This document shows positions 43,046-48,494 of a stretch of DNA of 64,000 bases, in pieces. The position numbers and the translations under genes are program-made. The DNA is from Goekera deserti. Lineage in GTDB: Bacteria; Actinomycetota; Actinomycetes; Mycobacteriales; Geodermatophilaceae. The stretch is from the NCBI RefSeq assembly GCF_010685995.1, contig NZ_JAAGWK010000016.1, positions 62,001 through 126,000 of the forward strand, in the 5' to 3' direction. A model generated the notes under the pieces. The model was not told the origin of the DNA and ran no database searches. It worked only from the letters and a program-made list of their open reading frames with translations. Every line of letters begins with the position of its first letter. Within the stretch, counting starts at the first letter, position 1.

Positions 43046-46090
<3,045 letters not shown>

Positions 46091-46191
46091 TGTTGCGACG
46101 GTACCAGCGGGTCCGCGGCCCCCCGGCGGGCTCACGGCCGTCGCCGGCGTCGCCGGTCGGGGACCCCACGCGGACGATCAGGGGCCCGGTC

Positions 46192-46367
46192 GGTGCCGGT
46201 CGAACCCGGTACCGGTCGAACCCGGTGCCAGTCGAGCCCGGTGCCAGTCGAGCCCGGCGCCAGTCGACCCCGGCGCCGGTCGACCCCGGCGCCAGTCGAC
46301 CCCGGCGCCAGTCGACCCCGGCGCCAGTCGACCCCGGCGCCGGTCGACCACGGCGCCAGTCGACCAC
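46192..46367. repeat. Eleven tandem 16-bp repeats
   Basis: Unit GGCGCCAGTCGACCCC, eleven consecutive copies with changes that grade from GGTGCCGGTCGAACCC at the left to GGCGCCAGTCGACCAC at the right. The period is not a multiple of three. Each unit contains GTCGAC or a one-base variant of it. It lies about 100 bases upstream of the gcvP start and so may overlap its promoter region. Confidence 0.9.
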
Positions 46368-46994
46368 GGTCCGGCCGGTCGATGTCCATCGGTGCCGGTG
46401 GTGCCGGTGCCGGTGAGTGCGCGGCGGAGCGCATCCGAGGCCAGGCGCCTCTGCCACTCGACTCACAGGCCAGGCATCGGCCCGATGCCGGCCATGATCG
46501 TTCGGCATCTGGCCGGGCGGAGGCCAACGCTTGCCCCTGACAGGACGCGGCCGCCGCGGCGCGGTCGGTCTCGCTGCCTGGCTGCAGTCATCGCCCGCGC
46601 GGACGCCGACGTCGCGCTGGTCGCCGTGGGCCAGCGAGGTCGAGGTCGAGGTCGACCTTCAGCACCGCGTCGGCCACGACCAGCCCACTCCCGGCCTGCG
46701 TCGGTCCGGCGCTGCGCTGCGTGCCCGCGCCGCAGGCGGACTCGACCGACGCCGCCGGACTGCGTTCCACAGCAGCGCGACCCGCCAGCCACGCGACCCG
46801 CCGGCGGCGGTACGAACGCGGCGGCTGAGCGCCCCACGGTCAGCGGCGAGGTCGAGCGTCGTCCCGACATCGGCCAGGACCGGCCGGTCCATGGCCGGTC
46901 ACGGGCCAGTGCCTCGCGGCGACCGCGGACCAGCGCAACCCGGAGCTGTGGACGCGGACCGCGACCGGCCCATGGCCTCCGCCGGCGCTCCGCG

Positions 46995-47410
46995 CCACGA
47001 GCAGCACCGAGGCCGAGCATCGGCCCGAGGTCAGCCAGGACGGGCCCGCCCATGGCCGATGGCGGGCCAATGCTCCACGCACGTCGGCACGCCAGCGCGC
47101 CACCAGCAACGTCCAGGCCGAACATCGGCCCGAGGTCGGCCAGGACGAGCCCGCCCATGGCCGATGGCGGGCCAACGCCTCACCGGCGTCGACCGCCAGC
47201 GCGCCACCAGCAACGTCCAGGCCGAGCATCGGCCCGAGGCCAGCCAGGACGAGCCCGTCCATGGCCGATGGCGGACCAATGCTCCACGCGCGTCGGCACG
47301 CCAGCGCGCCACGAGCAGCGTCCAGGCCGAGCATCGGCCGAGGTCAGCCAGAACGGGCCTGCCCATGGCCTATGGCGGGCCACTGCCTCACCGGCGTCCG
47401 CAGGCGAGCG
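46995..47410. repeat. Four tandem 104/105-bp double-hairpin units
   Basis: The core hairpin GGCCGA-GCA-TCGGCC begins at 47011, 47116, 47220 and 47325, so the periods are 105, 104 and 105 bases. Each unit carries a second hairpin GGCCCGCC-CATGGCCGAT-GGCGGGCC about 17 bases later. Changes in units 3 and 4 mostly keep pairing through G-U pairs. Decayed copies appear near 46465, 46850 and 47470. The unequal periods exclude one continuous reading frame. Confidence 0.88.
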
Positions 47411-47821
47411 CGATGGGTCAGGTTGCGACGTAGGCCGCGACCAGGCGGCGCGCACCCGGTGGTGCGGCCGGGGCATCGGCCCGCACACGGCCAGGACTGG
47501 CGGGCTCCTGGCCGGACAGGGGCCACTGCCGCCTGGCACGACGTGCCGCGGAGAGCGACATCGACAGGGCGCCCCGTCCTGCTCGCCGGGGGGCACGCGC
47601 GCCGGTCGGCTCGTCACGGAGCCAGCGCCACAGGCCACACGCCCGGGACGACGCGAACACGCCGGCATCCGCGGACAGCCACGGCACCTGCGGACAGCCA
47701 CGGCGTCCGCGGGCAGCATGGGCGGAGGAGCACTCGGGGCCCCGCGCGACGGTGGACCCGCGGGCAGCGTGCGGGTCGGTCGCCGTCCCGGACGAGGTGT
47801 GGTCGGGGAAGCCGCCGGGGG

Positions 47822-47841
47822 CTCCTCCCGGCCGGGAGGAG
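47822..47841 (-). terminator. Terminator after MerR (ResR-like) gene
   Basis: Perfect 20-base palindrome CTCCTCCCGGCCGGGAGGAG, 16 bases after the stop codon of the minus-strand MerR gene; it separates that gene from the repeat region. Confidence 0.75.
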
Positions 47842-47857
47842 GGCGGCGTCCCCGGGA

Positions 47858-48424
47858 TCAGGCGAGCTTGCGGCGGCGGCGGGCGGAGAGCTCGTCGTCG
47901 GCGGCCTTGCCGGTGCCGTCCAGGCGCTCGGCGGGCAGCTCGGCCAGCTCGCCGGACAGCTCGCGCAGGGCGCCGGACACGGCGATGCCGAACACGCCCT
48001 GGCCGCCGGCCAGCAGGTCGACGACCTCCTCGGCGGAGGTGCACTCGTACACGGTGACGCCGTCGGAGAGCAGGGTGACGTTGGCCAGGTCACGCACGCC
48101 GCGGTCACGCAGGTGGTCGACGGCCTTGCGGATGTTCTGCAGCGAGACGCCGGTGTCCAGCAGTCGCTTGACCACCTTGAGCACCAGGATGTCGCGGAAG
48201 GAGTAGAGGCGCTGGGTGCCCGATCCTGTGGCCGTCCTCACAGAAGGACCGATCAGACCTGTTCTCGCCCAGTAGTCCAGCTGCCGATAGGTGATACCAG
48301 CGGCGGAACACGCCGTGGGACCGCGGTAGCCCACCAGGTCGGTGTCGACGTCGTCGTAGCTCGGGGCGCCGACGGCAGCGTCGGTGAAGAGCTGACCCTG
48401 GCCGCCGTTCCGCTGATCGCTCAC
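47858..48424 (-). CDS. MerR-family regulator, Rv1830/ResR-like
   Basis: A 188-residue MerR-type regulator. The helix-turn-helix is GITYRQLDYWARTGLI with the wing RLYSFRDILVLKVVKRLLDTG; the C-terminal domain (about 110-170) is shared with mycobacterial Rv1830 (ResR). GTG 48424 follows AGGAGGACG. It lies between gcvP and the DUF151 nuclease gene as in mycobacteria, where Rv1830 affects growth recovery after antibiotic exposure. A palindromic site at 48479-48494 may be its own operator. Confidence 0.88.
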   Translation of the reverse strand: MSDQRNGGQGQLFTDAAVGAPSYDDVDTDLVGYRGPTACSAAGITYRQLDYWARTGLIGPSVRTATGSGTQRLYSFRDILVLKVVKRLLDTGVSLQNIRKAVDHLRDRGVRDLANVTLLSDGVTVYECTSAEEVVDLLAGGQGVFGIAVSGALRELSGELAELPAERLDGTGKAADDELSARRRRKLA

Positions 48425-48478
48425 GGGCGTCCTCCTCGTTGTCGTGCTGCCCACCGATGGCTCGGCGGGACGCCTCGC

Positions 48479-48494
48479 GTGACACATGAGTCAC
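48479..48494. promoter_or_regulatory. GTGACACATGAGTCAC near-palindrome upstream of ResR-like gene
   Basis: A 16-base site, palindromic at 14 of 16 positions, 55 bases upstream of the minus-strand GTG 48424. Candidate autoregulatory operator of the MerR protein. It lies within a 223-base gap that also has CCGTTATC, a partial copy of the GATAACGG motif, near 48588. Confidence 0.45.

Follow-up and report, generated by a model that had tools for sequence, protein, structure and literature searches.

Dispersed palindromes of 58–60 bp bracket genes for a predicted AbiEi-like/Vsr-like protein in Geodermatophilaceae and form a partly tandem cluster in Goekera deserti

The window, i.e., the whole analysed stretch of 64,000 nucleotides from Goekera deserti (the host genome), holds seven copies of a palindromic element at 46474–47530, in the interval between gcvP and a gene for a MerR-family regulator (Table 1). 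All seven are best read in one orientation and the middle four alone stand in tandem; no further nhmmer match better than E 0.028 was found in the rest of the 64 kb window. A sequence-only reading of this DNA had described four units at steps of 105, 104, and 105 bp, decayed copies on both sides of them, and a position between gcvP and a resR-like gene. Array analysis with Tandem Repeats Finder confirmed the units and their steps, and the decayed copies and the position were likewise found as described, the resR-like gene being of the MerR type (PF13411). The extent given there (46845–47540) covers an array that is real and is too narrow for the feature as a whole, which takes in all seven copies and a relic near 46660.

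Each unit of the array consists of one palindrome of ~59 bp and a spacer of about 46 bp. The hairpin GGCCGA-GCA-TCGGCC, which had been taken as part of the unit, is out of register: the conserved unit begins at GCA, and the GGCCGA before it is spacer. As far as tested, the array does not encode a protein: none of the five open reading frames crossing it had a Pfam match, and a coding array was rejected on these grounds. The tandem growth most simply stems from unequal exchange between neighbouring copies.

Two shorter tandem repeats were observed in the same interval: 11.2 units of 16 bp (CGGCGCCAGTCGACCC, 93% matches), each with a GTCGAC palindrome, at 46191–46369 between the start of gcvP and palindrome copy 1, and some three 19-bp units (CGGCAYCCGCGGACAGCCA) at 47663–47717, downstream of palindrome copy 7. 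At 1531–1938 of the window, overlapping short tandem repeats with units of 15–39 bp around TACGGCCAGCC probably encode a repetitive protein segment.

Table 1 Features of the interval between gcvP and the MerR-family gene, with coordinates in the window
Feature	Position	Strand	Evidence
gcvP, flanking gene (context)	43046..46135	-	NCBIfam TIGR00461, 1306.6 bits
Palindrome copy 1, single, decayed	46474..46531	+	nhmmer E 7.2e-9; row in the 26-copy alignment
Weak and uncertain palindrome relic	46660..46714 (about)	+	covariance model E 0.0036; nhmmer E 0.028
Palindrome copy 2, single	46855..46913	+	nhmmer E 2.1e-11
Tandem array	46991..47412	.	Tandem Repeats Finder: period 104/105, 4.0 copies, 85% matches
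Palindrome copy 3, tandem unit 1	47016..47074	+	nhmmer E 2.5e-14; covariance model 74.3 bits
Palindrome copy 4, tandem unit 2	47121..47179	+	nhmmer E 5e-13
Palindrome copy 5, tandem unit 3	47225..47283	+	nhmmer E 2.2e-13
Palindrome copy 6, tandem unit 4	47330..47387	+	nhmmer E 5.3e-11
Palindrome copy 7, single, nearly symmetric	47472..47530	+	nhmmer E 3.7e-9 on +, 5.8e-10 on -
MerR-family regulator, flanking gene (context)	47858..48487	-	Pfam PF13411 E 2.4e-15

The array was compared with the host genome, and a shorter match on another contig exposed the dyad-symmetric element of ~59 bp. Copies from five extragenic stretches (26 in total) were aligned almost without gaps, and the conserved unit in this alignment is a single dyad-symmetric element of about 59 bp with the consensus, roughly, GCAnTGGCCC-n6-GGCCAGGA-n10-TGGCCG-n5-GGGCCAnTGC. 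A covariance model built from this alignment was then used for searches in which the best 150 candidates were scored in the host and the best 50 in each relative genome, so that copy numbers are lower bounds. The host genome contained at least 50 distinct places at E 0.01 or better (from at least 95 rows), grouped into about 20 clusters or single copies that are spread over 13 contigs. By a simple gene call from codon-position GC, 48 of 49 examined host copies were extragenic, the single exception being the weakest of the 49, despite 63–99% of the stretches around the copies being called coding. The sequence-only reading had proposed looking for copies in other intergenic gaps, and that is where they were found. 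It had also left the choice between a repeated structured RNA and a DNA-structure element; the host unit is supported as a dispersed extragenic palindrome, which favours the DNA element, and the RNA half is not supported by the results that follow.

Base changes in the units had been said mostly to keep pairing. This does not hold for the 26 host copies, in which the paired cells made up 78.8% (shuffles, 78.6%) and the score for covariation (0.081) equalled the shuffled mean (0.081). The host class is conserved as sequence, and changes in one arm are usually unanswered in the other; the sole proposal of RNAalifold on these copies was a four-pair stem in a different register. Rfam gave no match at gathering scores in the window and none up to E 1 in 46000–48000. 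Neither a terminator-like nor a sigma-70-type promoter-like site was found in 46100–47900, and intrinsic terminators were rejected as the identity of the units.

Among the matches listed for the same covariance model, three relative genomes held pairs of elements 1025–1027 bp apart, with one gene of about 300 codons between the paired elements; its reading frame looks broken in one genome (G031). The host homolog lies on another contig, outside the window (G000:C32:506963–507922), and is bracketed by eight copies, i.e., a run of five upstream and a run of three downstream. The C-terminus of the protein matched DUF559 (PF04480) / REase_MTES_1575 (PF18741) in Pfam, no transposase domain was found in the gene by Pfam scans, and PADLOC AbiEi models matched the N-terminus by sequence in all three proteins searched (E 1.7e-10 to 3.4e-18). 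A structure was predicted for the homolog of Blastococcus sp. URHD0036 from 37 aligned proteins (mean pLDDT 94.3). In this model, residues 1–192 resemble Streptococcus agalactiae AbiEi (6y8q_A; Z 13.3, rmsd 5.0, 179 aligned), and the N-terminal ~190 residues resemble Mycobacterium tuberculosis Rv2827c (1zel; Z 9.6). Residues 191–301 resemble a Neisseria endonuclease-like protein (3hrl; Z 13.1, rmsd 1.8, 92 aligned), the homing endonuclease I-Bth0305I (3r3p; Z 11.3, rmsd 2.7, 96 aligned), and Vsr (1cw0; Z 9.6, rmsd 2.6, 101 aligned). E216, D248, E259, D261, and H266 were invariant in 28 of 28 homologs. Going by the predicted folds and the sequence signals, the gene encodes a probable DNA-cutting protein in which an AbiEi-antitoxin-like winged-helix module is fused to a nuclease domain of the Vsr/homing-endonuclease type. 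Seven neighbour genes were scanned at five loci; none matched a nucleotidyltransferase toxin, and one was without any match.

Upstream of the gene, GTCCACAG was conserved in 68 of 100 loci (duplicate loci included) and in none of 100 downstream stretches. It lies in gene orientation upstream of the start codon (e.g., L170, L173, L175, L176), and TTGTCCACA occurred in 20 of 100 loci. GTCCACAG resembles the actinobacterial DnaA box, and it may tie expression of the gene to replication.

Homologous loci were collected by a genome scan with protein alignment, which yielded 76 loci, mostly from Geodermatophilaceae (Blastococcus, Geodermatophilus, Modestobacter, Klenkia, Trujillonella). Homologs outside this family came from some Demequina, a single Catelliglobosispora, a single Acidimicrobiia MAG, and others. 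Palindromes on both flanks were first seen on 30 homologs and then in further genomes, including Catelliglobosispora (L206) and the Acidimicrobiia MAG (L238). For counting, 106 loci were reduced to 86 by removing six without an open frame of more than 200 codons with the catalytic motif and 14 that were duplicates or had short flanks; the same motif filter found no gene in the loci of three further weak host homologs (C17, C45, C32:71279), which therefore lie outside the flanking-palindrome test. Flank pairs were scored by the pairing of each palindrome plus the mutual identity of the pair, and controls were taken from the same loci by shifting both windows 500 or 900 bases. At a score of at least 70, matched palindromes stood on both flanks in 55 of the 86 non-duplicate loci vs 0 of 160 displaced control pairs, and at a score of at least 65 in 60 of 86 vs 7 of 160. 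The remaining 26 loci, including six from Demequina (L227, L231, L232, L234–L236), scored below 65, which counts against the main reading given below. The palindrome often abuts or overlaps the 3′ end of the gene. We regard the association of gene and palindrome as secure in outline and as new in kind. At three loci (L204, L205, L225), matched palindromes bracket a stretch without a full-length reading frame; these appear to be decaying gene copies.

The palindromes vary widely in sequence among lineages (GCGTTGTCCC.., GGTGATGTGC.., CCGTTGAACC.., GGCACTGTGCG.., GGCATAGGAAGC.., TCCACATCCC..), with a constant length of ~58–60 bp. Among 52 loci, the two flanks of the same gene had a mean identity of 0.74, a value raised by the score filter that these loci had survived and that favours matched flanks; the flank pairs counted above give the comparison free of this filter. 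Palindromes of different loci had an identity of 0.61 at a protein divergence within 30% and of 0.34 beyond 65%, and palindrome and protein divergence were correlated across the 52 loci (Mantel r 0.83, none of 5000 permutations as high). Such a correlation is also expected from common descent, which by itself would not leave both flanks similar to each other as they change; only the match from flank to flank speaks for concerted change. Of 11 organisms with two loci, seven had two usable paralogs and were compared, the other four lacking a good pair at one or both loci. The mean match was 40.9/59 within a gene and 23.9/59 between paralogs, and in six of the seven organisms both same-gene pairs beat every cross-paralog value, the pairs having been pre-chosen for fit, so that the comparison is illustrative. 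To that extent, the class of palindrome follows the particular paralog and not the genome.

A second class (the GGAAGC class), searched with an exact pattern, was present in 34 of 108 genomes of the family with 1 to 44 copies each and was absent from the host genome; a reversed control pattern gave no match in any of the 108. Its copies were compared with the matching paralog, which was called at E 1e-80 (32 of 108 genomes), a threshold set after the scores had been seen to fall from 1.4e-83 to 7.6e-47. Both were present in 24 genomes, the gene only in 8, copies only in 10, and neither in 66 (Fisher p 8e-10, uncorrected for relatedness). In at least six of the eight gene-only genomes (G024, G022, G090, G052, G081, G083), the gene carries palindromes with variant outer arms, which were missed because the exact pattern cannot match them. 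Copies without a detected matching gene were seen in G001, G002, G023, G050, G056, G042, G047, G019, G020, and G091, and possibly these are orphans after gene loss.

Covariation, for which the sequence-only reading had called and which in the host class did not exceed shuffles, was strong in this second class. Across 30 copies from 30 genomes, 92.2% of cells were paired vs 79.1% in shuffles, and 108 cells showed double changes vs 38.7 (sd 5.8), with none of 500 shuffles as high; as the pattern fixes the outer arms, the free positions alone bear on these values. Within single genomes, the right arms were re-dealt among the copies in 2000 rounds. None of the re-deals attained the observed pairing in G004 (12 of 12 copies) and G008 (18 of 19 copies), 1 did so in G005 (19 of 25 copies), 93 did in G002 (11 of 11 copies; a weak signal), and 361 did in G001 (11 of 11 copies; no signal). 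The last two are both genomes without a detected matching gene, which, over five genomes, gives only a hint that orphan copies decay in pairing. Where the gene is present, copies tend to be self-complementary whatever their sequence, an indication of DNA hairpins or cruciforms and not of one fixed operator. The GGAAGC palindrome was further seen to extend by about three more pairs (bias to A/G-C-C on the left and T/C-G-G on the right; L244–L273). The flanks at the same loci often resemble C-rich/G-rich hairpin stems, which possibly reflects a target preference.

The nearest known counterpart is the REP/REPIN-RAYT system. REPs are palindromes of 20–40 bp with a GTAG or CGTC tag at one end (PMC3733652), and RAYT genes are bracketed by the REP classes tied to them, which sometimes overlap the gene end (PMC3116915, PMC3733652). 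The palindromes described here are similarly dispersed and extragenic (host class) and come in several classes, each bracketing its gene. They differ in their length of 58–60 bp, in a consensus without a GTAG or CGTC end (26 host copies, 30 second-class copies), and in the enzyme, which is AbiEi-like and Vsr-like. The RAYT/Y1 transposase domain PF01797 was not found in the one host genome and was present in 5 of 14 control genomes; a RAYT as mobiliser was thus rejected for the host.

The front half of the protein shares its predicted N-terminal fold and its sequence signal with AbiEi of type IV toxin-antitoxin systems (S. agalactiae AbiEi, Rv2827c), members of which bind inverted repeats of their own promoter (PMC7319586). 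Here, in contrast, a nuclease domain is fused to it, and palindromes lie on both sides of the gene and genome-wide. The C-terminal 110 residues share their predicted fold and the PF04480/PF18741 signal with Vsr-fold nucleases (I-Bth0305I, DUF559 / REase_MTES_1575); MTES_1575 is itself described as a Vsr-type restriction endonuclease (PMC3710099). A difference from these nucleases is that the genes examined here were not seen in the setting of an intron, an intein, or a phage. Like insertion sequences and MITEs, the system has a gene between matched repeats as well as solo repeat copies; unlike them, it showed no transposase domain in the Pfam scans of the gene, and each end is a whole palindrome instead of one half of an inverted pair. 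In searches of open-licence papers, no title or abstract linked a DUF559/AbiEi-like enzyme with palindromes on both sides of the gene that encodes it.

We regard mobility of the palindromes as likely. Some genomes have the gene type beside clpX and G031 has it beside a gene for a short-chain dehydrogenase, which indicates that gene and palindromes together occupy different places. Many homologs hold a fixed place beside clpX, and this suits vertical descent. Direct signs of mobility were absent where sought, i.e., target-site duplication, empty site, and plasmid or phage homolog, and this counts against the main reading. Around 32 second-class copies, nearly all solo, there was no direct repeat of at least 3 bases, again unlike insertion sequences, and 2-base direct repeats numbered 3 vs 2.99 expected. 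The host protein had no match in 72,556 plasmid records, and the protein of G109 had none in 50,697 phage records. Visual inspection of 20 genomes over 420 bases downstream of clpX revealed no precise empty site; four genomes (G053, G054, G099, G107) show no gene in this stretch, and their neighbouring sequence is too diverged for an exact junction.

We consider it rather probable that the palindromes belong to a system like REPIN/RAYT that relies on an unrelated enzyme, and that the cluster in the window is a non-autonomous set cognate to the one host gene. By analogy with AbiEi antitoxins and their promoter repeats, the AbiEi-like part may recognise the palindrome. The Vsr-like part would nick or cut the palindrome, perhaps in a hairpin or cruciform state at a replication fork, and repair or template switching would copy either a single palindrome or two with the intervening gene to new extragenic sites. 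Local unequal exchange may have turned one copy and its spacer into the 104/105-bp tandem array. Copying via repair, with or without the gene, would explain the dispersal, the bracketed gene, and the concerted classes. The broader proposition stands, in our judgement, at an even chance: that this is a new kind of selfish DNA, in which an AbiEi module with a homing-type Vsr nuclease spreads its own 58–60 bp palindromic operator independently of the HUH transposases by which REPs spread. Gene and palindromes would then diverge in concert into many classes in Geodermatophilaceae and some other actinobacteria, and several such lineages could share a chromosome, each keeping its own palindrome.

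The alternative that survives best, and that we still regard as unlikely, has nothing mobile in it: the palindromes would be operators or chromosome-organising sites of the AbiEi-Vsr protein, the flanking pair serving autoregulation and the dispersed copies forming a regulon or having a structural role. The promoter repeats bound by AbiEi antitoxins (PMC7319586) fit such a role, as do the GGCC boxes of the host class, whose spacings of 11, 21, and 11 columns correspond to about one and two turns of the helix, the one-sided placement of GTCCACAG upstream of the gene, and the conservation without covariation of the host class, which is expected of a bound site. An operator is harder to reconcile with a palindrome that often abuts or overlaps the 3′ end of the gene, with clusters of up to seven copies and second-class numbers ranging between genomes as given above, and with inner arms that vary yet stay self-complementary in three of five genomes, which fits pairing and not a fixed operator.

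It is less plausible still, and in our view improbable, that the palindromes are extragenic hairpins, useful to the host or neutral, amplified by replication slippage and hairpin-templated repair with no dedicated enzyme, the gene being one that tends to land in or near them. The tandem growth in the window does resemble ordinary unequal exchange, the second class occurs in ten genomes with no gene detected, and target-site duplication is absent, all of which would suit such an origin; against it, the palindrome class tracks the paralog and not the genome, and the presence of the second class follows its paralog. Least of all do we expect the interval from gcvP to the MerR gene to encode repeats of a structured RNA (a leader of an mRNA, an array of sRNAs, or a terminator), a reading that is very improbable and was rejected: the unit can form hairpins and one related palindrome class covaries in its pairing, but the host copies covary no better than shuffles, Rfam is empty, no terminator-like site was found, the copies are spread over many intergenic contexts, and the second-class covariation is equally expected of hairpin DNA.

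For the large and unexplained actinobacterial family of DUF559-type nucleases with an AbiEi-like front half, the flanking palindrome is a concrete candidate substrate. Since the two flanking copies label the site of every gene, recognition codes could be readable directly from genomes. CGTC-type REPs are described as without a dedicated transposase (PMC3733652), and the present case suggests seeking enzymes for them beyond the known transposase families. If the favoured REPIN/RAYT-like reading is true, the REP/RAYT way of life would have arisen in a second, unrelated form, and the system would illustrate how an operator-binding protein of toxin-antitoxin origin can turn into the part that targets a mobile nuclease.
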